This document shows, piece after piece, positions 8,459 through 23,916 of a DNA stretch of 64,000 nucleotides. Below the pieces are notes generated by a model. That model searched no databases. It saw only the letters and a list, made by a program, of their open reading frames with translations, and had not been told where the DNA came from. This DNA is from Diprion similis (Eukaryota > Arthropoda > Insecta > Hymenoptera > Diprionidae), in assembly GCF_021155765.1 (NCBI RefSeq), contig NC_060110.1:496001-560000 (forward strand). The letters are read 5' to 3'. Position numbers and translations under genes: made by a program. Position 1 is the stretch's first letter, and each line of letters begins with the position of its first letter.

Positions 8459-9810
8459 AATTTGGTGATCCTGCCCGGATTCGGTTTAAACCAACGAACG
8501 CGGCGCGTGTATAAAACGGCCAAATCGCAGTGACTAACTTTGGAAGTGAGGGAATAAATTCAATAAATATACGCGCTTCGTGTTTATAAGTGATTATTAC
8601 GTATTGTACTTAAGAAGGAATAGAGCGAAAGGTCGCCTTGCGTAGACAATCAAGAACTGAGTGTAGACCGCTTGACTCTACACTGGACAATATTTACAGT
8701 GAACTTGTGTATTTATTAAAAAGGTAAGCACGTATAAATTCTGCACTCATTAGATATAATGAATTTTGCATTTAAATAATCTAAGTGAAGTGAAATAAGA
8801 ATAAGGACACTCAGACTCGAACTGTTCTCATATTCTCACCCCCGGTGCCTGTCAGAGATTCCAGGATAACAAAGCCGCGTACCGACAGCTACAACAATCT
8901 TCGACTGTCATGTCATGGCTACTCCTAACGTAATTACAAGCATTTTGTTACTTACTCGAGTCACCATAAACGTATCAAAGAAAGTTGTGATTGAAATTGG
9001 GAATTTGATGGTCAAACTTGAAATATTCAAATAAATAAGGTCAAAACTTGACTCAAGGTAAATTAAAAATAAAATCACGATGGATTTAAACGAAAACAAT
9101 GATCGAAGGTCAGCAATATAACTCCTACTATTGCTGAAACAGCAGATGATGGAAAGGAAATACTTCGAAAGGAGATTCTAGGATTTGACAAGCCAAATGA
9201 CGCAGCTTGTAAATAGGCTCCAAGAAACCACCGAACGTAATGATATAGGTTGAATGGGTATATACAGTCTTAGTCTAGACCGATTAAACGAGGAGAGGTT
9301 AACCGCGCGTCAACTTGCTCGTCGTGATGACTTGCCTATAGAAGACCTGTTTTATTGAATTACGAAATCAAGAACGCTGTGAACGCGAATTCATCCGTTG
9401 CAATAATGTAGAAACAAATCTAAACACCGAGATAGCTCCAAAATGCAACAAGCAGATAATCAATTAACCATTGAAAATCGGCAAGAGGAAGCTCATACGA
9501 ATATTGATATCAATCAGGAAACGGTCGATCACTATTATCGTTTAACAACTAATGACAACCCGAATGTTTCTAATATTTCGAGACCTCGCGGTAATTATAC
9601 CGGAGCGATACCGCGAATTCGATTGGATACCGCGCGTCTCGTAGAATCGGAGATAGAAGGTCCTACTCAGGTAGCTCCTTCAATCGTAACAAACCCACCA
9701 CGTGACTCGGCATTATACGAGCTCGATCAGAACCGATTGCTGCCGCCAACACCACGAATCAATGAGACAGGCGCTCCAGTCGATTTAGACTGGGGTCATC
9801 AAGGTATTAA
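8459..9810 (+). mobile_element. Old gypsy-type element, 5' leader and decayed gag
   Basis: After the LTR there are about 600 bp of leader without a gene. A gag-like reading frame then begins near 9080 (MDLNENNDRR), with several stops. It is open from 9443 (QADNQLTIENRQEEA ... GAPVDLDWGHQGIKG). The frame leaves recognisable sequence at a TTAA at 9807-9810, where another element starts. The gag assignment is by position and composition. The same element probably continues at 25.04-26.73 kb with protease and RNase H remains. That link is inferred from order and orientation. Confidence 0.5.
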
Positions 9811-9880
9811 GGGGAGGTATACACCTAGATGGTCGAAAAAATCGATTTTTTTGCATCTTCTTGAAGTTTACGGTCCCCAG

Positions 9881-10272
9881 TGTTACGTCTCGAAGACGTT
9901 ACATTGCTTTCCCAGTCTCACAGTTACCCTACACCCAGTCCTTATCCTCGCCTAGTCAGCATGCCCATCTCTCGCGACCAGCTAGGTCTTCATGCCCGTG
10001 TAACGTACTTCACTTCAATCCCAGTTCCCACTCAAGCAACACACAAGACTTTTCTCGGTAACTGACTCGCTAACGTCAATTCAAACCTTTATACTAAATC
10101 AACACTGTTATTCTACCCGTGTCTCAATTCTCTTCCTGCACTGGGGAAAAGGACGCACGCAAGTGCATAAACGACGTATACGAACCCCTAAATAACCAAA
10201 TAACATCTTGGCTGGGCGTAGAGTAGGTTTCGGTTACCGCTCGACGTAACCTACGCAACCTACCCCATAACA
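9881..10272 (+). repeat. 5' LTR of the macro-domain gypsy element
   Basis: 392 bp, starting tgttacgtc and ending ccataaca. It is nearly identical to 23451-23847; visible differences are a few substitutions and small indels. Confidence 0.95.
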
Positions 10273-10275
10273 TTC

Positions 10276-10287
10276 TGGTAGCAGCGG
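10276..10287 (+). promoter_or_regulatory. Primer-binding site, initiator-Met tRNA type
   Basis: Three bases after the 5' LTR the sequence reads tggtagcagcgg. Eleven of twelve bases agree with the complement of the 3' end of initiator methionine tRNA (TGGTAGCAGAGG), which primes minus-strand synthesis in several LTR elements. Confidence 0.65.
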
Positions 10288-10348
10288 TTTTGCCGTCGAC
10301 CTACCCTTTGTGCAGTGCTTCGGAAAATCTACGCTAGAAAAGTGTTAA

Positions 10349-11586
10349 GGGGTAAGGCCACTGTAACGGTCCAAAAAGAAAGGTTTTTTCACGAATTTTT
10401 TGCTTCCGAAATTGAAGGTAATTGAAAAAAAACTTTTAAGGGTGTTATCGGGCATACATTAAACTTTATTATCCAATTTTTTTACAGCGAAAAAAAAACA
10501 AAATGGCGGTTCCACAGCCATCTTCCCGGGGCATGTTTTGCTTGCAGGGCTCCGCGGCACGCAGCACCACTGCTGCACTTTTGAATCTAGAACAAAAAAA
10601 AAAAAAACCGTTAATCTAGAGGGTTATAGCTAGAGAATGTCGATCGGATTTTAAAAAGTATTAATTTTTGTGGATTTGGCGTGCGTTTGAAAAAAAAAAA
10701 TGATTTTTTACGAAAAAAACGGCTAGTTTTTTGTTAATAAAAAAACAATAAATAAAGTTATTGAAAATCCCGATCGACATTCTCAAGATAATGTTAATGT
10801 TCACATCTGGTAAAAATTTCAAGTAAAAAAAATGAAAATTGTTCGAGTGATGCTGCGTGCCATTTTGAAAAACCGTGTTTCGAGAAAAACGCGTTTAAAG
10901 TTTTACGACTAGTTTTTTATGGGAAAAAATTAAAAAAAGGAGGTAAAAAAAATTTGTACCGTTAGTCTGCAATTCCAGCACCATACATTTGTCCTTCGAT
11001 GGCCAAATTTTCGTCTTCTTCGTCTTTCCTGGTCGATTTTTGGAGCGCGCGCGCACTTTTTGCCGCGTCGCTCAGAGATGCCTCGGCGTGCGTGATGCGT
11101 TCGGCGTCGGCTTCGATGCAGAAATTATATAATTGGGCACCAATTTCCACCTCCAACATCTTGAATATTTGCAAGACGTTGGTAAGGCCGCCATTGAATA
11201 TGATATCCGTCAGGGGTCGTCGTTTCATCCCGCCTGATCGACGCCGCGTTGGATACGCGGTTTTCGTACCTTTTTTTCCAAGATACACTCGATCACCCAT
11301 TTCAACTAACGCGTTCGCAAATTTTACAGTGAAATCGGAAAAAAAAACCACGGAAAACACGCAAAAATCGTCACTTATGAAGAATAAATCGCTCTTTACT
11401 GTGCGCTTGCTGCAGCTAAACTAACGAAATTTTTCTTCATAATGCTCAAAAGGCTCGAAAGGACACGTGGAACAAAAATTGTTCTCGCACGGGACCTTTT
11501 TTTTCTTATTCTAAAGGGTTTAAACTATTTTTTAAGCCAATAAAAAAAAAATCGATTTTTCAAAAAATTTACAGTGGCCTTACCCC
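10349..11586 (-). mobile_element. TTAA-flanked, internally deleted Kolobok-like transposon
   Basis: The element has perfect 18-bp terminal inverted repeats (ggggtaaggccactgtaa at 10349; its reverse complement ends at 11586) and a TTAA duplication on each side (10345-10348 and 11587-11590). It sits in the leader of the gypsy element. On the minus strand it retains only the C-terminal part of a transposase. The rest is A/T-rich with homopolymer runs and no gene. TTAA duplication fits Kolobok or piggyBac; the protein remnant favours Kolobok/Mutator-like. Confidence 0.85.
10962..11190 (-). pseudogene. C-terminal fragment of Kolobok/Mutator-like transposase
   Basis: On the minus strand a stretch reading GGLTNVLQIFKMLEVEIGAQ, then YNFCIEADAERITHAEASL and a terminal YGAGIAD matches the C-terminal end of the transposase family also present at 24.82-25.04 kb. 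The open frame extends to 11360, but the extra N-terminal residues do not look related. The catalytic domain is missing, so this element would need a transposase supplied elsewhere. Confidence 0.6.
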
Positions 11587-11590
11587 TTAA

Positions 11591-12071
11591 TACGCAAAAC
11601 TCCCGATACCATATCAATAAGTAATAGCCACGTCGAGAGTGTTCGCCGGCAGATCAAGTGTGTACCTGACAAATGCAGAACTCGCAACGAACTGTGCAAC
11701 GAGTGGAAATATACGGACGACAGCCGAGTTATACCACACATCATCTTTCGGAACACAAAATTGTGATTAGCCCCCACCCCTTTCTGGACCCCTACGACGC
11801 TGGAACAAGAATCTGGACCCAAGATTGGCATCACTCAGATACCTGGAACACCAAACCGAGACTCTTCAACACGCAGCGGACTTCCCCACCTACACCCTCC
11901 TCGTGCCGACGGACGACGTGCATCACCTCTTCAAGTCTCACCTGTCTTCAGTCGCCTACAACCATGCTGTACCTTGTGTTTGTGTTCATCTTTGCTCTGT
12001 AAGTTCGTTGTAATCCTTAGTAAAAAGTTGATATTTATCCCTGTACCCATTGCCCATCTACGAAAATCGAT
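11591..12071 (+). other. Gypsy leader, no gene seen
   Basis: This is the 5' leader of the macro-domain gypsy element, continuing after the nested TTAA insertion. Short open frames here have no recognisable features. The gag start lies at 12072. Confidence 0.6.
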
Positions 12072-13192
12072 ATGTCACCAACTAATGAGACCGGTTCATC
12101 TTTTTGGTCGGTAAAAGACGTCTTACTGACGATCCCTGCGTTCGATGGCAACAACATGCCCTTTGACCAATTTGTGGAACAATTGCGCCACGTGGAAACT
12201 CTTATTAGAGTTTCAGACAAAATGACCCTTGTTAAATTTGCACAATCAAAAATTACCGGTCCCGCTTTCCGATATTTAGTAGGCATTAATTGCAACGACG
12301 TCGAAGACCTTATAACGGCCCTCAGCCGAGCATACCGTCCGAATATCCCCGTACGTCAATTATCAACTTAATTAGATAGAATTACCCAACAACCGCGTGA
12401 GCGCATCATCGATTACTCATGCAGAATAAGAGTACTTAATATCAAACGAAATAAGCAAAGCTATCGAAAAAAAATACCCGCAAGACATAGCAACCGCCTT
12501 GCTAAATGACTTAAGAAAAGACACTGCTAGAACGTTCATTAGAGGGCTTAGACCAGGATTAGAGTGGAGAATAGCTACCATCAGACCAATTTATCAGACC
12601 TTTGATATCGCCGTCCGGTTCGCCGAAAGCGAGGAGACCGAGTTAAATAACCGTCAAATGCAATCCTTTGCACAATATTGTACCCCTCCTACACCTATGT
12701 ATCCCCCAATTTCCCTCTCTGCCTGCCAAAACGATGCCCCCCCACCTCAGGTGTCCATAAACCCCTCCCTCATTCCCCCTCTAATGTCATTGCCCACACC
12801 TGGTTACGCGCATCAGCAAGCGCCCCGTATCGAACCCATGTCCTACGCCCAAGCCCTCGGTGCAAGCACCCTCGCGCCTCCCGCAGATCGAACGAGGACC
12901 GATTATTTGCCAATTTTGCAACCACCGAGATCACCCGATCACGGAATGCCATCGCCTGCAATATACAAGATACTGTACCAAATGTCGCAGAATGGGCCAC
13001 TTTTACAATGAGTGCAACCAACCCAACAGAAGCGAACAACTGTACTGCGATAACTATAAGCGCAGAGGCCACACATCAGACCAATGTAGATCTCCCGCGC
13101 GTAATAATCAAAACCGTGTAAGTTCGAATCAACATTTAAACGGCAACACTACCCGCGGAGAGAACGCGCCCGCGAGCTATGCAAACAACTAG
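12072..13192 (+). pseudogene. Gag of macro-domain gypsy element, frameshifted
   Basis: ATG at 12072 opens MSPTNETGSSFWSVKDVLLT, a retroviral-type capsid-like region (IPAFDGNNMPFDQFVEQL). A stop at 12369 and a frame change lead into 12499-13011 (RTFIRGLRPGLEWRIATIRP). A proline-rich linker follows. A second frame change near 12880 leads to three zinc knuckles at 12917-13095: CQFCNHRDHPITEC and CTKCRRMGHFYNEC are complete CX2CX4HX4C motifs, whereas the third (CDNYKRRGHTSDQC) has lost its second cysteine. Gag would assemble particles and bind RNA. This copy is broken. Confidence 0.85.
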
Positions 13193-13242
13193 CGTTCCGA
13201 TCCACAAGCCACATCTTAATAACAGCTTAAGCTGATCCCCCT

Positions 13243-14031
13243 TTAATTTCAATCGATACCCCTGAATTGACAAAGATTTCTAAATTTATTATCGACACCG
13301 GTGCAGACGTAAACTTAATCAAAGAAAGTTGTGTTAAGCCCCTCGTACGACGCACCACAGACGAACGTTTGACATTAACTGGTATAACGGATGAAAAGAC
13401 GGAAACCATTGCAAAAACGGAAATATGCTTTAATAACAACTCCCATACCTTTCACTTGGTCCCTGACTCATTCCCAGTCCCACATGACGGTATTTTAGGC
13501 CAACCTTTTTTACGAAAAGAGAAAGTAACTATCTCGTCCAACTCAAACTCGGTAATGCTTGGATCCTCATTGCCAATCCACTTCAGCAAAGTCGAACAAC
13601 CTCCTCCTGAAACCACTCGTGTTATTACAATACAGGCCCGCACCGCGAAAGTCATCCCGATAATAGTTGCAAACCCAGATATCAAAGTAGGCTACCTTAA
13701 ACGCATTAATTTAGGCAACAATGTTCTTTGTGGTGAAGCAATAGTTCGAAATCAGAACGGCATCGTTTATTCCTACGTGTTCAATTGCAACGAATCTGTC
13801 GTAGAGAAAGCATCTCCAACGGTAACCCTGGAAGAATTCGACGAACCACTGAGCACAGCCATGCCCGAAATTACGTCTACCCCGCCGAATAATTCCGACA
13901 AAAATAATGGACAAAAATCCCCCCTTCCTACCCAAACCACTTCTCATAATAATTCATTAATTCTTTCTACTAATAACCACATATCCCGCCCGCCTCATTA
14001 CCCCCCCCCCCCCCCCCCCCCCGTTTTTTAG
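13243..14031 (+). pseudogene. Aspartic protease region of gypsy Pol
   Basis: The frame contains FIIDTGADVNLI (active-site DTGA) near 13290 and the flap/hydrophobic strand DGILGQPFLRKE near 13490, typical of Ty3/gypsy proteases. It continues through a linker to a proline run at about 14000-14025, encoded by a tract of about 18 C residues. Directly after the tract the frame re-enters reverse transcriptase, with about 150 expected residues missing. The product would cut the polyprotein. Confidence 0.85.
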
Positions 14032-14989
14032 TTTCGGACTAAAAAACGCCCCTGCCACGTTCCCAAGGCTCATGGATCAAGTTCTACTAGGCCTACACGG
14101 CAACGAAATGTTCGTATATTTAGATGATATAGTAATTTACGCCCGAAACCTAAAAGAACATGAGATTAAATTCCGAAAGTTAATGAAGAGACTAACTGAC
14201 GCTGGTTTGACTCTGCAGGCAGACAAATGCCAATTTCTGCGCAAAGAAGTCGTTTACCTCGGTCACTTGATAACTGAGTCGGGAGTAAACCCTGACCCTA
14301 ATAAATTAGTAGCTGTAAAAGAATACCCGGTCCCCAAAAAACCCAAAAATGTTAGACAGTTCCTTGGCCTGCTAGGCTACTACCGTAGGTTTGTCCCGAA
14401 TTTCGGAAAAATTGCGAAATGCCTTAATAATTTAACAAAAAAAGATACTCCTTTCAATTGGACATCTGAGCACCAATCTGCCTTCGAAACTTTACGTGAT
14501 TGTTTATGCACGGAATCAATCCTTCAATACCCTGACTTCAGCAAGCCGTTTACGCTCACTACCGACGCGTCAAATTTCGCCATTGGTGCAGTTCTAAGTC
14601 AAGATAAGGATGGCGCCGACCTACCGGTAGCATACGCATCCCGAGCACTCAAATCCGCTGAATTAAATTACTCAGTGCCCAATAAAGAATTCTTGGCCGC
14701 GTACTGTAGTATCAACCATTTCCGTCCGTATATCTATGGCCAGAAATTTACTTTAGTGACAGACCATGAGCCACTCAAATGGGTAAAAAGCGTCAAGAAA
14801 CCGAATTCCCGTTTACGACGTTGGAGTTTGGAACTGGCAGAATATGATTTCGATACAAAACATAAATCCGGCAAATCTAATACCAATGCCGACACTCTGT
14901 CCAGAAACACGCCCCCCGACACCGCCCAAATCCTCCCTATAGACGCAAAACGCCCCCGTCCCACGACTGAATCCTCTAGCGACAGATAA
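14032..14989 (+). pseudogene. Reverse transcriptase (N-terminally deleted) and RNase H
   Basis: The frame starts in the palm (SFGLKNAPATFPRLMDQ) and includes the catalytic YLDDIVIYA near 14120, the thumb (FLGLLGYYRRFVPNF) and RNase H with TTDASNFAIGAVLSQ, KEFLAAYC and LVTDHEPLKW. It ends in ADTLSRNT followed by a short basic tail and TAA at 14987-14989. The finger subdomain is absent because of the deletion at the C tract. A +1 shift of frame just before the stop would join it to the macro-domain frame, which is open from at least 14982. Confidence 0.88.
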
Positions 14990-15104
14990 AAAAAAACGCA
15001 TTAAAAACACTCATCAGTTCCCCCGACGACCCCGACAGACCACAGACGAACCTACAAACCCAGCCCCACTGAAATACCCAAAAACCTCCCATCCCACCTA
15101 CCAC

Positions 15105-16712
15105 ATGATATATTCCTCCGGTTCTTCTGATCTTTCAGATGACGAATCCAGCGATAAAGAAACCCCGACACCTTCTAAACCCCCTGCCGTCGCCCCCCCA
15201 TCGATCCCGACGCACCGCCATCCTAAACGCCACCGTGAAACATACTCTCCGACAAATTCTGGTCCACATAAAAGATCGCACCTGAGCTACTTCTCAGATT
15301 CCCCCTTTAACTCAGATGACCTACAAACTCCGGAAACCGACTCAAAAACAGATGACATTGAACCAGCCACCGACCTACCGGACTCTCCACATACCCACAC
15401 CCCCTCGTACAGCGATTTCCTTCTAGAAAGCGAAACTTTTCCCACTACGCGTAATAAACGTATTAAAGAAATAAAAGCTGACCTATTACAACAAAAAGAT
15501 AACCTGGCTCATTGTATATCAGCTGACTGTCAAATCTCGAAAAGAATCGCGTCGCAGCTAGCAGAACGTAAATTCATAAACCGCGAACAACTCAGAGAAT
15601 ACGACCCGTCTGTGACCGACGTTATTCCTACCGCTCACGGAAACCGGAAAATTTATAACCTAGTTACAAAGCAAAAGTACAGTGACAAACCCTTGCCACA
15701 CGTCTTTTTTGATACCTTGGTCAACTTTAGGAAAACCTTGGAAGAAGATGGTGTAACATCTGTCTCGATCCCGTTAATAGGCTGCGGACTCGACAAACTA
15801 GAATGGAGCACGGTGCGCAAAATGATCCACTATATTTTCAAAGATTCAAAAATGAATATCACCGTTTGTCGCCTTGACCCTCCGCTTTCAACCCCCACAC
15901 ACCACGACGACACAACGGTGTCCGTTGATAACGCCTCACCTGACCCCATCCCTTCCACATCTGGTAACCCCGCTCCTTCTCTTCGTCCGCCGCGTGAGAA
16001 ACCGCAACTTCCTACCAAATCAGTCGCACCTCTTGCGACCCCACCTCCCCTCCCAGCCACGAACGTCGTCATGCCTCCGCCTGTAGGACCCCCGCGTCGT
16101 GCTAAGAGACGCCGAACAGCTGTTCCCAGGCCAGCGAACTCTACTACTCACCACCCTCCACCTCCTCCCTCAGTACCCACACTGGCCTCTGATGACGACA
16201 ACAACTCCAACTTGCTCACGGATACCGAATACCATACATGCGCCCAACAATCCGACTCCGATATGGAAACCACACACTCTGACCATGACATTGATCCCAA
16301 TGTTGACGACGATTTGATCGATACCTCCCACGATTTCACGAACTTTGTTGACAACTTGGACGACATACCGGTATCTGACAATGTCAAAGACACCAATGAT
16401 GGTCTTTTGATGCTCAAAACCAATTATGCACACTTTATATCAACAGACTGCTCTTGGACTAAAGGCATACCATCACAACTTGCCCACGATAATATCGTTG
16501 ACCCAGATATAGTTATGAGGCCCCGTCCACAGAAATTTGATATTATCGAATCCGAGCACAACAACCGACGGATTTTTACTCTAGTACTAAAATCAAAAGA
16601 ATCAGATGAAAGCAACCTATATGATATTTTTCAACTCTTGTCTAAACTGAAAACAGTCTTGACCGATTCAATTCCGAAATCCCTTGCTTTCCCAATAACG
16701 GACGATAGTTGA
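15105..16712 (+). CDS. Pol segment with tandem macro (ADP-ribose-binding) domains, OARD1/TARG1-like
   Basis: The 535-codon frame, open upstream to at least 14982, lies between RNase H and integrase. Residues 1-115 are acidic and proline/serine-rich. Residues about 118-257 form a macro domain close to OARD1/TARG1: LAHCISADCQISKRIAS, YNLVTKQK with Lys189, and SIPLIGCGLDKLEW with Asp230. These are the positions of the Lys-Asp pair used by TARG1 to release ADP-ribose from proteins. The phosphate-loop GxG-type glycine is replaced by Arg147. A proline-rich linker follows. Residues about 428-535 begin a second, degenerate macro domain cut by TGA. ADP-ribose hydrolysis by a retroelement is inferred, not shown. 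Confidence 0.8.
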   Translation: MIYSSGSSDLSDDESSDKETPTPSKPPAVAPPSIPTHRHPKRHRETYSPTNSGPHKRSHLSYFSDSPFNSDDLQTPETDSKTDDIEPATDLPDSPHTHTPSYSDFLLESETFPTTRNKRIKEIKADLLQQKDNLAHCISADCQISKRIASQLAERKFINREQLREYDPSVTDVIPTAHGNRKIYNLVTKQKYSDKPLPHVFFDTLVNFRKTLEEDGVTSVSIPLIGCGLDKLEWSTVRKMIHYIFKDSKMNITVCRLDPPLSTPTHHDDTTVSVDNASPDPIPSTSGNPAPSLRPPREKPQLPTKSVAPLATPPPLPATNVVMPPPVGPPRRAKRRRTAVPRPANSTTHHPPPPPSVPTLASDDDNNSNLLTDTEYHTCAQQSDSDMETTHSDHDIDPNVDDDLIDTSHDFTNFVDNLDDIPVSDNVKDTNDGLLMLKTNYAHFISTDCSWTKGIPSQLAHDNIVDPDIVMRPRPQKFDIIESEHNNRRIFTLVLKSKESDESNLYDIFQLLSKLKTVLTDSIPKSLAFPITDDS

Positions 16713-16795
16713 GGTGAACTCGATCCTCGTGTTATCCGAAAACTCTTATCTTACCTTTTCGCAGACTTACAAATTCCAATCACGCTTTGCCGCAA
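16386..16795 (+). pseudogene. Second, degenerate macro domain
   Basis: YAHFISTDCSWTKGIPSQLA aligns with the start of the first macro domain and keeps a KGI loop. FTLVLKSK keeps the lysine position. The catalytic loop is altered: GCGLD of the first copy corresponds to DDS-stop-G, with TGA at 16710-16712. The same frame continues after the stop with VIRKLLSYLFADLQIPITLC, aligning to the last helix and strand of copy one. The domain had probably lost catalysis before the nonsense change. It may be an internal duplication of copy one. Confidence 0.65.
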
Positions 16796-17867
16796 CACGA
16801 CTGTCACCCCAGACGAATGTTTACGTAAAGAAATAATTAAAGAATGCCACGAATCGATAATTGGCGGTCATCAAGGCGTCACAAAAATATACAACCGCAT
16901 TAGACAAAAATATTTTTGGCCGCACATGAAAGAACAAATCCAAGACTTCATAAGAACTTGTGAGAGTTGCCAAAGGAGAAAACTAGTAAGAGTAAAAACC
17001 AGGTTGCCGAAGGTGATAACAGATACTCCTGCCGATGCATTCGACAAAGTAGCACTAGACATCGTTGGACCTCTCCTCCTTACTAAATCAAACAACAAAT
17101 ACCTTTTGACGATACAATGCAACTTGACGAAATTTCTGGACGCCAGCCCTTTACCTGACGCCACTGCCAAAACAATAGGTGCAGCATTCGCGAAAGAATA
17201 CATTACACGTTACGGTGCCCCTCGAGCAATACTTACAGACCAAGGACAGAATTTAATGAGCACAGTCATTAAGCAGCTTTGTAAACTCTTTAAAATAAAA
17301 CAAATTCGAACTACAGCTTAGCGTCCACAGTCTAACGGATCGCTAGAATGCAGTCACCTTGTTCTCACCGAACACGTCAAGCATTACACGAATGCTGGTA
17401 AAGACTGGGATGAATACATCCGCTTTGCTATTTTCTGTTATAACACCGCGAAGCACGAAGGCCCTCACTTCACTCCCCATCAGCTAATTTTTGGTTCCCA
17501 TGCCAGACTTCCGACAGACGCGAACCCTGCCAGCGCTTACACCCGTTCCTACGATTCCTTCCTTCTAGATTTAATCTCCAACCTATCCAGCATACGAAAA
17601 AACGCCGCGGCTAACCTCATTTTAGCAAAGCACCGTTCCAAGACGTACAATGACCGTCGTACCAATAACCAAAATTTCGAAGCAGGTCAAAAGGTCTATC
17701 TACTAAACGAAACCCGATCTAAATTTGACGACCACTATAAAGGAGCATATACGATCAAGCGTATAATTGACGATATCAATGCCGAAATTTTCATCACCCC
17801 CCATAAGACCAAAATTGTCCATCTGAATAAACTCAAATTAGCACAGGAAGAGAATGATTCAAATTAA
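16713..17867 (+). pseudogene. Integrase of macro-domain gypsy element
   Basis: The frame continues from the second macro domain. A zinc-binding region has HESIIGGHQGVTKIYNRI with CESCQRRK. The core has LDIVGPLLLTKSNNKYLLTI and LTDQGQNLMS. The region of the third acidic residue comes after an in-frame TAG at 17319-17321, in PQSNGSLECSH, where the glutamate is kept. The C-terminal part has NFEAGQKVYLL and DDHYKGAYTIKRI, a gypsy-type SH3-like tail, and ends at TAA 17865-17867. One internal stop is visible. The enzyme would insert element cDNA into chromosomes. Confidence 0.88.
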
Positions 17868-18317
17868 ACCCCCTTTAGAAGCCAACAGCCGTATATTATC
17901 AATCTACCCGTAACATGCATCGCCTCACCACCAACCTCAGCTATGGCGGAATCGCCTTGCGTCCCTCTCAGCAGTTTTCTTTTACTACAAATTCTCATTA
18001 TTCAGTAAAATCTGAAAAGTATACTCTTGCTGTAAATCCAGGCGGACACGCCACAACCTCGACTCACGTCATCTAAGACCCCAAACCCTTTCCTACCATG
18101 TCATTTCCCACCCTCACCTAGAAAATAGGCCATTCCCTAACGACCTGGCTCCTCGCACTTCGTCGCTGCTCCGAGCTCATTCATAAATTGAAATGATGAA
18201 AATATCCAAGCTACGACAACACCCACGTAAACTGCCCCGCGATCAGAGCCTTGACGCTAGTTCCGACTCCCTCTTCATCTGGACAGACTAAGCCCTCTAC
18301 TACAGACTTATAAGAAC

Positions 18318-20168
18318 TGTGACGAGGTTTTTCGCCGCTCTTGTTCACCCGGAGAAGTTCCCAAGAGTTAACCTGGTGCACAATGATTCGGCAACCTGCG
18401 ATGCAATCTGCAGTTTACCAAAGCTATCTCGAAATTTTGTTGGGCGCCTGGCGTGATAAACACGCCTCGAATCTTTACCTTCGCAATTCCTCGGCTATCC
18501 TTCTCTATGCCAGGTAGCTCAGTACCGCGGAGAGGGGGTGGGTAGTTTTGCGGAGAGAAAGAACGGACACTCGACACGATACAGAATTTAACAAAATAAA
18601 ATAAAATAATATATTCAAAAAAAAAAAAAAAATTCGAAGCGATACAAAACAAAAGGAAAAAGGCCTCCCGCGATTCCACAAACAAAATAGAAAGAAAATC
18701 AAATCTTAACTAGACCTTAAATCTACGTGCGCTAGTCGCGTTCCTCGTCTCAACGAGATCAACAAAACAAAAATCAAAATACAGAAAATCGACAACGATA
18801 CGAACACGCTACTCGTGATCGTCCTTCCCTTAATTATAAATATCGGCGCTATTCGCCAAACCCGAACAGAATTATCGCGCTAATCGCAAAACATACCCTA
18901 CAAGTACTCGACAGTAATTCTTACTTAACAACTTAAATCGAAGCGATTAATCGCGACGCATCCGAAACTTTACTATCTTCTGAAACAAATCAAACAAGGA
19001 AACCAGAAATAATAACCCAGCCAAACAGAGCGCTCACACTTAGCGATACACGACCTACACGAGAGGTGACACTTTCTGAACACGCGAACGCGACTTGACC
19101 CTGTGCAGCGGAATTTGGGCTGCTCGCAAATAACGAAACGAATGACTCTACTCAACATGTACAATAGCCAAAATTGACTCGATACGTTATCGCAAAAAAA
19201 AATCAAGCTCCGGCCACCAACCAAGGAAATCGGCAAACGAATTTCGAGTATTGTTTGACCCAATTCAACATGGCCAACCGTTACCCGGTGCGCCGACCTA
19301 AACCGTTCTCGAAATTTGTCCGCAAAGAAGCAATAGCGCTTACCGCAATGAATCCAGACCCGAAAAATCTCCGTCACGATAATTGGACAATAGTCCCGTC
19401 TTCCGCGAATCCCAAAATTTTAACACCAATCGCTCAACTCTCTCAATAACCCAAAAAACTATCTTTACAAAATTTTCGCAGCCTTCGCTAGATTCAGCAC
19501 CAGGAATGTGTGTTTCTCAAGTCTCCAAGTGTCCTGCTTCGTCACGCCGAGCCAAAAATTCAAACCGAGGCGTTGTCGTTTCCGAAATTTGACGAATCTT
19601 ATTGGGTATCGAATTACGCGACTCTTAAATTCTAGCTTATCGCTAACGTCGGTTTCCGCTGTCGCGGCTCGCAGATTGGTCGTTGGACTCTCCGGTGTTC
19701 AGTCCTCGTCAGTGGCGTAGAGGCAGCACGATCGTTGGCATGATGGTGTATCGCGAGGAAGGCAGGCTACGGTTCGCTGGCCAACAGCGGGAATCTCGTC
19801 CGCCTTGGTTTCCCTCGCGGCAGAGCTCGGCGTTGGCGCTCCCTCCGTAGCCTCGTGTGAGACCCTTCGCTCGCGGTGTATCCTCCGTTGAGGTCTCTCT
19901 TTACGGCCGGTTCCACACTCTCGAATTCGTCGTCTATCTCCCTGGTTGGTGTCGCAAATACTCAAAACAAAATTGAACAAAAAGACCCTGTAATACTCCA
20001 TTCGCTACCCTGTAAAGGGTCCCCTCTCAGTGTTTCGGATGCGTGACCCTTGTCCTGGCGCTCTTTACGAATTAGATAATCATTCTTGTCGCGAAATCCC
20101 TTGTTAGAGCCCCGCCTAAGGTTCGGGGAGCCACTTGTAACGAGCATCAAAAAAAATGCCACGTTACA
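18318..20168 (-). mobile_element. 1.85-kb LTR-type insertion with 4-bp target duplication
   Basis: The insertion starts tgtgacgagg and ends cacgttaca, and the bases gaac precede (18314-18317) and follow it (20169-20172). It contains no recognisable protein gene. On the minus strand, cgttaca near 20132 is followed two bases later by tggctccccga, resembling a tRNA-Asp-type primer site, and ggcgcccaac lies near 18450. It may therefore be an LTR plus remnants of an internal region, or a long solo LTR. TG...CA ends and the duplication are clear; the internal interpretation is not. Confidence 0.6.
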
Positions 20169-20530
20169 GAACATACCCATTGTTATGCCCAAATATCGTT
20201 TAATAAAAACGTCTCGAATTACACTATTATAATAACCGTATTCCGTATCACAATCAAAACCCTAAAATTATAATTTACCTATAATCGTATTTATACTATC
20301 TACAATTATACCCCTGACATTGTCATTTAACTTTGATTGTATCTAGGGTAAGTTCGGGGTAGATGGCCATAGTTTTTCCAAGGTTCAGTTAAAATAAAAC
20401 TACATTTATATAGACTGTAATTATTATTTGTATTTAAACTCTGAATATTATACTATAAATTGAATAACAAAAATCTAATAATTTCTAATAGGATCAACGT
20501 TAAAAACAATAAAATTTGAAAATCACAACT

Positions 20531-20565
20531 GGCCATCTCTCCCGGCGCGTCCGGGAGAGATGGCC
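20531..20565. repeat. Subterminal hairpin, pogo left side
   Basis: Perfect 15-bp arms, ggccatctctcccgg and its complement, enclose cgcgt. A third, near-identical site (gggagagttggcc) follows at about 20577. A similar hairpin lies at 22608-22641 near the other end. They are likely transposase-binding sites. Confidence 0.7.
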
Positions 20566-20599
20566 TTAGTAGTACGGGAGAGTTGGCCAGTAAATACTT

Positions 20600-22519
20600 C
20601 TACTGTTTCTCCTTTTTCACCGTGCATTTTTTGAGTTTCAGTTCTCTTTTTTTCCTTTGTCCGCATTTTGAACACATGTTGTCAAATTCAGTGCAATTCT
20701 CGTGCAACCTAAGTTGGCAAATGATACACTGAAGCCAGTCTTCGATAAGATGTGTTTCGAAATAGTTCTCTCCACAGCCCACACAGTTTTCTTTTTCTCT
20801 CCCTTCACCCTTTTTGTCTGATGTATCGCATAGAACTGGCTGTTCTTCATCGCCGCTGCTGTCAGATATCATTCTTTTGGCATACTTCATATCTTCTTTA
20901 CATTTTCTCATTTGAATGTGTTCTTCTGATGTTAGGAGTGTGCCGACTTGCTTAGCCCGTTTACGTACTTCGAAAACTTTTTGTGAAACAGGAGATATTT
21001 CCATTAAAATTCGCGTTGGAGTTAAATCTGGGACGTCATTTTTATTTGGTGGAGTTCTTGAGGTCGACGACAGCATCGCGGCAACTTGAGAACCACTGCT
21101 AATCATGTTCTCAGTAGGACTTTTCTTCGGAAACATTTCAGGGTTTGCGTTTGAGATTCGGTGTTCCTCAGCACAAAAGGTTTGCTCAGAGACTGTAACA
21201 GACTCGCTTACTGGCTCTTCTGAAATTCGTGAAACTTGTTCCAGGTTTGTTGATATCGAATCTGTAATTGTAGCTGGGGAGTCTTTTTGAGAGGTCGATG
21301 TGAGTTCCCTTGGTTCTTGTGTAAAAGCATAGTCTGGGATTGCGCTTGGATTGAAAGGACTGACTCCGGTAGCTTTGAATCCTGTAATAGCATTCTCTGC
21401 AGAAGCTGCTTTTCCCCACGCTTTATTAAGCAATGTTCCGAACGACAGTCTTGTAATACGACGACCAGTATTTTGTTTCAGCCACAGTCGGCATTGTTCG
21501 TAGAAATGGGTTTTCAATGACTTGAACACTGCACGATCCAACGGTTGAAGGTAGTGAGATGTGTGACTCGGCATTGATAGCAAAACTATGTCATTTTTTT
21601 CTGCGTATTCCAACATTTCAACAGAATTGCAATGAGTTGAATGGCCGTCCAACAACAAAAGAACTTTTCCTGCAGGTTTCCTTGAGACGAAGTGTGTTTC
21701 CAACCATTCCAAAAATATGATCGAAGTTATGTATGCAGACTTCTGAGACATAAAAATCCTCGATCCAGGAGGCATTCCGTCCTCAAACTCAGCTTTTTTA
21801 TTTTTACCCTTCATTATGCAAGCAGGTGGCAAAAAAGTTCCTTCAGCACTACAACAGGCTATAACAGTTATTGTCTCTCCTTTTTCAGTCGATGTAACTG
21901 TCGACACAGCTTTGGACCCCTTCTCAGCAAGTACATATCCAGGACGGTTATTCAATTGAAGCCCTGTCTCATCCATATTGAAGATATGACTTGATTCCAA
22001 CATCACGTCGTCGACCGTCAAAACATTTTCCAGAAGCTTAAAATAAGCGTCCACCTCCGCCTTGTTCATAGCAGTCGATCGCGCTAACGAAACACCTTCT
22101 GACTTCCTGATTGCAATATCAGGGTGCCTACTCAAAAACGATCGTACGAAATCGTAGCCTGCTTTTCCAGTTTCTTTATTGAATCTGTGATTTAAATTCA
22201 ATTGTTCAGCCAGCAGGTAAGCGACCTTTCTGACATCATCAATCGTTAAAGGAAAACCTTTCGCTTGCATGACTTTAATGTGGTTTGCGAGCTTCCTTTC
22301 ATTTTCGTCGCCAAAAAAGCAAGTTGGTCCCATAGGTCCTTTTTTGTCGTTATTGTTTTTGAAACGCATTTCTAAGGTTTTCCTTGGAATTTGATAGGCT
22401 TTGGCAGCTGCATAAACTGACATTTCACCATTTTTCAAAGCGTTTATTGCAGCCTTTAATGACTCTTCGGTCCATTTCCCTCGGGTAGCTAAAGCTTGTC
22501 TTTGGTATTTATTTGGCAT
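20600..22519 (-). CDS. Pogo-type transposase with C-terminal PHD-like zinc finger
   Basis: This is an uninterrupted 639-codon ORF. Residues about 12-55 form a Psq-type helix-turn-helix (SVYAAAKAYQIPRKTL), followed by a CENP-B-type DNA-binding region to about residue 145. The DDE_1 catalytic core has Asp183 (NMDETGLQLN), Asp291 (LLLLDGHSTHCNS) and Asp328 (HYLQPLDRAVF), the last two separated by 36 residues. Residues about 400-560 are serine-rich and unstructured. The C-terminus (about 570-620) has CVGCGENY, WLQCIICQLRLHENC and CSKC, a PHD/RING-like finger that could read chromatin. The ATG at 22517 fits the family N-terminus. It would cut and paste this element at TA sites. Confidence 0.92.
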   Translation of the reverse strand: MPNKYQRQALATRGKWTEESLKAAINALKNGEMSVYAAAKAYQIPRKTLEMRFKNNNDKKGPMGPTCFFGDENERKLANHIKVMQAKGFPLTIDDVRKVAYLLAEQLNLNHRFNKETGKAGYDFVRSFLSRHPDIAIRKSEGVSLARSTAMNKAEVDAYFKLLENVLTVDDVMLESSHIFNMDETGLQLNNRPGYVLAEKGSKAVSTVTSTEKGETITVIACCSAEGTFLPPACIMKGKNKKAEFEDGMPPGSRIFMSQKSAYITSIIFLEWLETHFVSRKPAGKVLLLLDGHSTHCNSVEMLEYAEKNDIVLLSMPSHTSHYLQPLDRAVFKSLKTHFYEQCRLWLKQNTGRRITRLSFGTLLNKAWGKAASAENAITGFKATGVSPFNPSAIPDYAFTQEPRELTSTSQKDSPATITDSISTNLEQVSRISEEPVSESVTVSEQTFCAEEHRISNANPEMFPKKSPTENMISSGSQVAAMLSSTSRTPPNKNDVPDLTPTRILMEISPVSQKVFEVRKRAKQVGTLLTSEEHIQMRKCKEDMKYAKRMISDSSGDEEQPVLCDTSDKKGEGREKENCVGCGENYFETHLIEDWLQCIICQLRLHENCTEFDNMCSKCGQRKKRELKLKKCTVKKEKQ

Positions 22520-22607
22520 CTGAAATTAACGTAAACATGTTTTCTCAATTCAAAAATTATAAAAACATCGCTATTCATAGTAAGGCCATCACACCCTGAC
22601 CGAATGT

Positions 22608-22641
22608 GGCCATCTCTCCTAATTTTCGGGGAGAGATGGCC
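22608..22641. repeat. Subterminal hairpin, pogo right side
   Basis: ggccatctctcc and ggagagatggcc face each other around a 10-bp spacer. It mirrors the hairpin at 20531-20565 and further ggccatctc copies at 22950-22975 within the terminal repeat. Confidence 0.65.
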
Positions 22642-23450
22642 ACACTAGCCACGAGACAAAATGTATGAGTTCTTGTGGTTATTTTGAGGTTATGTTCAAG
22701 CTCGACTCATGAGCCGTTCCGAAAACACTTGAAATTATATTATTTTTCAAAAGCTGGCCAACCAGAACTGGTAACATGAACTCCTTAACTAATTTTCACA
22801 CGAGGCAAAAGAAAACAGGTGGATTTACTTACCTTTGGTCATTTAGTCGCAAATATTTTTGCGCGCAGATCTTCGTACGCACGACTTGAAGCGAACTGAG
22901 TGATAACTAGCGACACTAAGCGAGTGTTTATAGAATTTTTTTGAGTTGGCCATCTCTCCCTTAAGGCCATCTCCCCCGGACTTACCCTATACTATCTACA
23001 ATCTAAACCCTAAAAATTATAATTTAACTATAATCGTATCTATACCATCTACAATTATACCCCTGACATTGTCATTTAACTTTGATTGTATCTATATTAT
23101 CTACAATCAAAACCCTAAAATTATAATTTAATTATAATTGTATCTTTATAATCCTAAAATTATAATTTCACTATGATTGTAATTTCCCTATCACGGTTAT
23201 GTAACTACTACATACTTAAACTATGAAAACATATCTATTGTTACATTCAAAATTTGAAAAAAAACAAACATTTCTGCTAAAAATGTATACTAACCCGCTT
23301 AAACGGGCATTAACCCTAGGCGCTATATTCTTTAAGGCAAACTATATTGTAATCTTTCGTAAGTGAGTCAGTACATTACCCAAAAACTCGGTTTTCCTTC
23401 GAACATTCGGCTCTGTACCCTCACCGAATGTTCTTCCCGAAGGGGGGGCG

Positions 23451-23847
23451 TGTTACGTCCCGAAGACGTTACATTGCTTTCCCACAGTCTCACAGTTACC
23501 CTACACCCAGTCCTTATCCTCGCCTAGTCAGCATGCCCATCTCTCGCGACCAGCTAGGTCTCCATGCCCGTCTAACGTACTTCACTTCAATCCCAGTTCC
23601 CACTCAAGCAACACATAAGACTTTTCTCCTCGGTAACTGACTCGCTGACGTCCATTCAAACCTTTATAATAAATCAACACTGTTATTCTACCCGTGTCTC
23701 AATTCTCTTCCTGCACTGGGGAAAAGGACGCACGCAAGTGCACAATCGACGTATACGAACCCCTAAATAGCCAAATAACATCTTGGCTGGGTGTAGAGTA
23801 GGTTTCGGTTACCGCTCATCGTAACCTACGCAACCTACCCCGTAACA
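23451..23847 (+). repeat. 3' LTR of the macro-domain gypsy element
   Basis: 397 bp, tgttacgtc ... cgtaaca, matching the 5' LTR. It is preceded by a purine tract and followed by the ccag target duplication. Confidence 0.95.
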
Positions 23848-23916
23848 CCAGAATTACTGGTCAAAATGGAAAGTTAATATTTCGAGAAAGAAGCCAGTTA
23901 CAGCCGAAAAAGTGAA

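Follow-up and report, generated by a model that had tools for sequence, protein, structure and literature searches.

Why should an element that moves through reverse transcription carry, in the midst of its polyprotein, a domain related to a cellular ADP-ribose hydrolase? The question is raised by a decayed long terminal repeat (LTR) element of the hymenopteran Diprion similis, which spans 9881-23847 of a stretch of 64,000 nucleotides (assembly GCF_021155765.1, contig NC_060110.1, positions 496,001 to 560,000), referred to here as the window. An earlier sequence-only reading had placed at 15105..16712 an open reading frame (ORF) with a macro domain like that of TARG1 (terminal ADP-ribose glycohydrolase 1, also OARD1 or C6orf130), between the RNase H and the integrase of a Ty3/gypsy Pol. 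These coordinates are correct, the ORF comprises 535 amino acids, and its placement is confirmed by the C-terminal part of a reverse transcriptase (RT) and an RNase H upstream and by integrase H2C2 and rve domains downstream. With regard to the macro content of the region, the first domain had been recognised, whereas a second, degenerate one at 16380-16796 had been overlooked. As judged from sequence and predicted structure, the feature comprises two TARG1-type macro domains in tandem, here termed macro1 and macro2, between RNase H and integrase in the Pol polyprotein of a Ty3/gypsy clade.

Macro1 is encoded at 15462..15866 on the plus strand. Residues 116-255 of the ORF match human TARG1/C6orf130 with an E of 5.6e-20 among 177635 distinct PDB sequences, which excludes a chance match, and TARG1 is both the best structural and the best sequence match of this domain. 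Structure prediction returns a macro fold, in keeping with the identity first proposed. The Pfam Macro profile stays under its cut-off in the window copy (13.9 vs 22 bits) and exceeds it in the related family C (38.8 bits). The catalytic dyad of TARG1 is formed by Lys84 and Asp125 (PMC9411070). Equivalents of both are present in macro1 as K189 (codon 15669-15671) and D230 (codon 15792-15794), which had been numbered correctly and which occupy invariant columns (K74, D115) of a 22-row alignment. Given the kept fold, the pocket motifs AHCIS and GCGLD and the Lys/Asp dyad, macro1 is most likely a working mono-ADP-ribosyl hydrolase. Sequence and predicted structure back the presence of a TARG1-like domain with its catalytic dyad in a Ty3/gypsy Pol, as do the intact relatives in multiple copies and the purifying selection.

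Macro2 (16380..16796, plus strand) contains an in-frame TGA at 16710-16712 and adjoins, at its end, the integrase zinc-binding domain. It shares 33% identity with macro1 by BLASTP (E 1e-17; genome match C6:512380-512796). Its sequence alone found no match in the PDB; homology to macro domains was shown by profile comparison and by the predicted structure of an intact relative. The TARG1-type dyad is lacking: GCGLD is replaced by TDDSLGG, SKSGDT or SKSGK in families A, B and C, and family E retains GSGFD but has T in place of the dyad K. In one long-frame copy from each of four families (L031, L032, L033 and L061) macro2 stands next to the integrase zinc domain, and it likewise precedes the integrase in family F, where it was detected by the macro2 profile. 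The two domains are joined by a linker (15867..16379, plus strand, within the window ORF); its equivalent in the intact copy L031 (L031:6030-6545) is rich in Pro, Ser, Thr and Asp and has a basic cluster, RRAKRR. Macro2 most likely represents a fold-keeping pseudo-enzyme devoid of the GCGLD loop, a putative N-terminal extension of the integrase that positions macro1.

Intact relatives were sought in the animal's own genome (269 Mb), where 150 of 240 RNase H candidates were scored, so that copy counts are lower bounds. Family A, to which the window element belongs, has at least eight unbroken Pol frames of 1801-1802 codons, with both macro domains in 8/8. These read protease, RT, RNase H, macro, macro and integrase as a single frame, and the separate ORF of the window is accordingly not the design of the element, as the sequence-only reading had taken it to be. 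Family B has at least six unbroken Pol frames of 1841 codons (macro2 confirmed in L032, the one copy checked), family C at least six of 1676-1724 codons (macro2 in 6/6) and family G, likewise with macro2, at least four of 1896 codons. In L061, the one copy of family G read, macro1 was looked for and not found in the linker between RNase H and macro2 (L061:567-2540); this Ser/Thr/charged stretch comprises 658 residues and has no Pfam match. Family F (C14:3856948-3860841, minus strand; L051, L067) presents RNase H, macro2, integrase, a degenerate macro domain and a broken catalytic-type macro domain, in that order. In L031 (family A), tblastn with pieces of the window recovered the order protease, RT, RNase H and integrase in one frame. 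The LTRs of L031 lie within an identical 445-bp repeat, and a TTAGG duplication is apparent from reading of the ends, while no duplication was detected by script at the borders of the longer identical repeat; since the LTRs are identical and flanked by TTAGG, the macro arrangement appears to have moved recently. P0059, which stems from a separate assembly, repeats the order in full, with the two macro domains and the integrase (Pfam identifies its RT, its RNase H and its integrase H2C2), and RT-RNase H-macro1 is found in the proteins P0001 of Neodiprion lecontei and P0060 of Neodiprion virginianus. L054, a broken relative of family C, has three successive macro domains. Behind the Pol of L033 (family C), positions 8677-9603 encode the C-terminal portion of a viral fusion glycoprotein of the Monjiviricetes type (PF24664, E 4.2e-72), which suggests that at least one macro-bearing family is retrovirus-like.

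Across the gypsy elements of this genome, macro matches were tallied up to 4.5 kb downstream of the 150 scored RNase H places, with an incomplete macro list and irrespective of strand. Such a match lies near at least 47 of the 49 RNase H places at 84% identity or above, at least 30 of 51 at 55-62% and at least one of two at 51-54%; at 44-50% identity the count is 1/48, that one being on the opposite strand. Same-strand family-G matches explain 14 of the 24 macro-less places in the three upper bands, and among the remaining ten, C10:2907583 has a weak macro2 (E 0.011) and nine have no macro match. In a tree of RNase H and integrase, built with elements of the same genome, six sampled macro-less gypsies split from the macro-bearing families with a support of 100, and the deep branches on the macro-bearing side are supported at 51 to 76 only.

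Scripted Nei-Gojobori counts point to purifying selection. Comparison of two lineages of family B gives dN/dS values of 0.057 (macro1), 0.043 (RNase H) and 0.158 (macro2); for the window copy against L031 the values are 0.15 (macro1), 0.04 (RNase H), 0.65 (macro2) and 0.57 (linker). In pooled stop-free copies of family A, which take in decay after insertion and a row (L012) with apparently misaligned stretches, the pN/pS values are 0.309 (macro1), 0.094 (RNase H), 0.606 (macro2), 0.960 (linker) and 0.601 (44 residues of the integrase). Along 14534-16796, the synonymous differences between the window and L031 fall from 58/110 sites in RNase H to 20/86 in macro1 and 4/90 in macro2, a drop that suggests recombination between two subfamilies in the history of the window copy.

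The domains seem to have been captured on more than one occasion. In a first tree (LG+G4), C_M2 and C2_M2 group with the macro2 domains of A, B and P0059 at 80, and the catalytic-type domain of family F groups with family C and host TARG1 (75). In a tree of 42 domains, from which the fragment rows C4_M1frag, C_M2, C2_M2 and F_Mb_part were left out, five macro2 rows cluster with the macro1 rows of A, B and E (95/92), and the macro1-type rows of family C join two host TARG1 units and F_Ma (98/92). A single capture for all macro1 domains was rejected by the approximately unbiased test (p 0.007, one model), for a group chosen after the first tree and with long branches present (F_Ma 2.06). From this grouping and this rejection, we infer that one older capture was followed by duplication, and that family C later captured a domain from the host gene or had its own replaced by one. 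The locus of host TARG1, L046 (C2:13508800-13513000), is itself an array of an active-type, a degenerate macro-like and an active-type unit. Each active-type unit is in two pieces, about 130 and about 520 bases apart; the Athalia rosae protein P0062 is continuous there, and the gaps read as introns. Unlike the host units, the macro copies of the elements are unsplit. In Athalia rosae (LOC105684241, P0062) the order is active, degenerate, active, degenerate. The derivation of macro2 from the degenerate unit of the host gene was also considered and gained little support (hhalign probability 50, E 1.6e-4).

Macro domains of this type are associated with gypsy pols at three positions. In addition to those between RNase H and integrase, one precedes the RT in P0037, and in P0049, a relative of P0037, one follows a protease-like stretch, the order protease-macro-RT being assembled from these two relatives; and one follows the integrase in P0064 (one ORF of 1222 amino acids) and a putative integrase in P0034 and P0036, where Pfam gave Macro only and the integrase was assigned by reading. 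The spacer between RNase H and integrase in P0064 was tried as a hidden macro domain and discarded (hhalign probability 0.1). TARG1-like macro domains are also found in the multidomain proteins P0006, P0008 and P0010, with partner domains that appear, by their Pfam accessions, to be DNA ligase or Y-family polymerase; such partners fit a function of these macro domains at DNA ends. With regard to viruses, a macro1-matching macro domain is present in the tombus-like virus P0046. In a library of viral structures, no named retroelement was among the best 50 of 104 matches (E <=0.001), about half of which are nameless, and in a collection of viral contigs none of the nine stretches that fit a pattern codes for a relative.

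What might the tandem do? We give roughly even odds (a probability of about 0.5) to macro1 being an eraser that acts on the element's own replication intermediates. Macro1 would be carried in the particle together with RT and integrase, host PARPs would put ADP-ribose on phosphorylated cDNA ends, on integration gaps, or on integrase and Gag, and the removal of such ADP-ribose by macro1 would leave cDNA synthesis and integration unblocked. The activity of macro1, its substrate, its packaging into the particle and its benefit to the element are all presumed here; the sequence-only reading had likewise suggested that the element may reverse ADP-ribosylation at cDNA ends or counter an antiviral PARP response. 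An eraser next to the integrase is a natural reading because the cDNA has free ends and joins the genome through gaps. Several observations weigh against it. The middle domain of L054 and P0033 lack the catalytic Asp, and the glycine loop is altered in L055 and L056. In families G and H, the latter read as far as the integrase, the loci sampled gave the degenerate domain only, so that catalysis may be dispensable in some families. L066, which has no macro domain, falls inside the macro-bearing clade, and in pooled family A macro1 is less constrained than RNase H. Furthermore, macro domains of RNA viruses match the macro1 model (Kadipiro virus VP8 and those of Frankliniella flavi-like, negev-like and thrips virga-like viruses), and since RNA viruses have no DNA ends, these need not be the target of the domain.

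This last observation leads to the strongest of the alternatives, which we consider possible though doubtful, namely that macro1 acts in the cytoplasm and erases host antiviral ADP-ribosylation of proteins or RNA ends instead of that of cDNA ends, in line with what has been proposed for coronavirus and alphavirus macro domains. The model-matching domains of insect-associated RNA viruses and of P0046 would agree with such a counter-defence, and the variable place of the domain in Pol, like that of the retroviral dUTPase (PMC5408684), would suit a diffusible activity. However, the fusion beside the integrase, the basic cluster of the linker and the activity of TARG1 on DNA ends indicate DNA as well. 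Chromodomains are thought to direct integration by the integrases of chromoviruses, and by analogy the tandem could bind ADP-ribosylated chromatin or sites of DNA damage and steer integration there. The position of macro2 beside the integrase zinc domain in four families and in F would favour this, as would the purifying selection on macro2 in family B despite its lost catalytic motif; yet the dyad of macro1 is retained, related domains stand elsewhere in pols (P0037, P0064), and, with the ADP-ribose loop gone from macro2, reading of the mark would depend on macro1, all of which makes a tether unlikely. More improbable still is a structural spacer, in which domains captured by chance serve as a folded linker of the integrase with no role in ADP-ribose biology: the sampled loci of families G and H with macro2 only and the nearly free evolution of the family A linker would speak for it, but the active-site residues of macro1 are conserved and the active type was probably captured repeatedly. 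Finally, host DNA joined to this one copy, or an assembly error, might be suspected from the decay of the window copy and its nesting with other transposons, but is ruled out for practical purposes by the recurrence of the arrangement at many separate genome places, in Neodiprion proteins (RT-RNase H-macro1) and, in its whole order, in P0059 from a separate assembly.

Returning to the eraser acting on replication intermediates, a broader proposal can be made tentatively, and we hold it to be rather less than probable: LTR retroelements of insects could face an unrecognised barrier in the ADP-ribosylation by host PARPs, and this clade would answer it with a macro-integrase, in which a dead TARG1 paralogue yokes an active TARG1 domain to the integrase and the active half would have been replaced at least once by a fresh capture of host TARG1. 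The arrangement suggests that ADP-ribose marks may serve insects against jumping genes and that the latter erase them. A TARG1 domain under selection in a mobile element, and the separate uptake of such a domain in different lineages, raise the question of whether ADP-ribosylation of nucleic acids restrains mobile DNA, and the compact macro domain provides material on which this can be tested.

The remaining anatomy of the window element is that of a decayed Ty3/gypsy element with paired TG...CA LTRs and a short target-site duplication. The 5' LTR (TGTTACG...TAACA; 9881..10272, plus strand) is preceded by CCAG at 9877-9880 and the 3' LTR (23451..23847, plus strand) is followed by CCAG at 23848-23851, the ends and the duplication having been assigned by reading; by blastn the two LTRs are 95.2% alike (398 columns, 9880-10272 vs 23450-23847). 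A nested DNA transposon at 10342..11593, which has TTAA at each end and inverted repeats of 48 nt (75% complementary), is foreign to this anatomy. On the plus strand follow the broken frames of Gag (12024..13189; frames 12024-12368 and 12430-13008, CCHC zinc-knuckle region 12785-13189), assigned by position and reading with a weak zf-CCHC match (E 0.13), an aspartic protease with DTGADVN (13231..14028; RVP E 2e-5), and the C-terminal part of the RT with RNase H (13961..14986; RVT_1 E 1.9e-12, RT_RNaseH E 5e-38). The N-terminal half of the RT is absent, RVT_1 being matched only from profile position 135 of 205, and a poly-C run at 14001-14022 marks the gap, which may be a deletion or an assembly collapse. 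The Pol order is protease, RT C-terminal part, RNase H, macro ORF and integrase, in a frame interrupted three times, at the RNase H/macro junction, by the TGA and by a TAG at 17319-17321. The integrase (16713..17864, plus strand; H2C2 zinc domain, catalytic core and C-terminal part) starts, as a frame piece, inside macro2; its stretch 16926-17321 matches H2C2 (E 5.5e-4) and rve (E 8.8e-7), both under the Pfam cut-offs in this broken copy, and both of its frame pieces are homologous to L031 by tblastn. The Chromo profile had no match in frame 16926-17321 or in the pieces of the relatives, in a scan that reached the integrase core. Between Pol and the 3' LTR lies a second nested DNA transposon, with an open transposase frame of 639 amino acids (20600-22519, minus strand; HTH_psq, Tc5 DNA-binding, DDE_1).

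How does this arrangement compare with known systems? Among the listed matches of a search of open-licence papers, none described a gypsy Pol with a macro domain, which agrees with the remark of the sequence-only reading that no such lineage was known to it. TARG1 shares with macro1 its fold and the Lys84/Asp125 dyad; it differs in being a cellular enzyme, putatively split by introns in the host, whereas the element domain is unsplit, part of a polyprotein and followed by a dead copy. TARG1 strips ADP-ribose from phosphorylated DNA ends, an activity abolished by D125A (PMC5725667), and removes the ADP-ribose that PARP1 makes on telomeric DNA (PMC11102865). The viral macro domains (coronavirus nsp3, alphavirus nsP3 and those of RNA viruses) are alike in that parasites of cells employ the macro fold. 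The candidate eraser described here joins dUTPase and AlkB among the enzymes captured by LTR elements. dUTPase was captured in retroviruses and in LTR elements of bdelloid rotifers (PMC5408684), and its place varies as does that of the macro domain in pols; it is a different enzyme, without ADP-ribose chemistry. Orchid Ty3/gypsy elements (PMC9289625) carry an AlkB m6A (N6-methyladenosine) demethylase domain, proposed to reflect host surveillance, and likewise present a captured eraser of a nucleic-acid mark; there, however, it is an additional ORF in plant elements of 25 kb with demonstrated activity, whereas macro1 is known from sequence and model. A further precedent comes from endogenous retroviruses of fish in which macro domain ORFs are reported (Basta et al. 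2009, cited by PMC4977317). These are also LTR retroelements that acquired a macro domain gene, but they are vertebrate epsilon-like retroviruses, and the macro domain is described there as lying in additional open reading frames. Macro ORFs in fish retroviruses were known already; what appears to be newly seen is a tandem of TARG1-type macro domains inside a Ty3/gypsy Pol.
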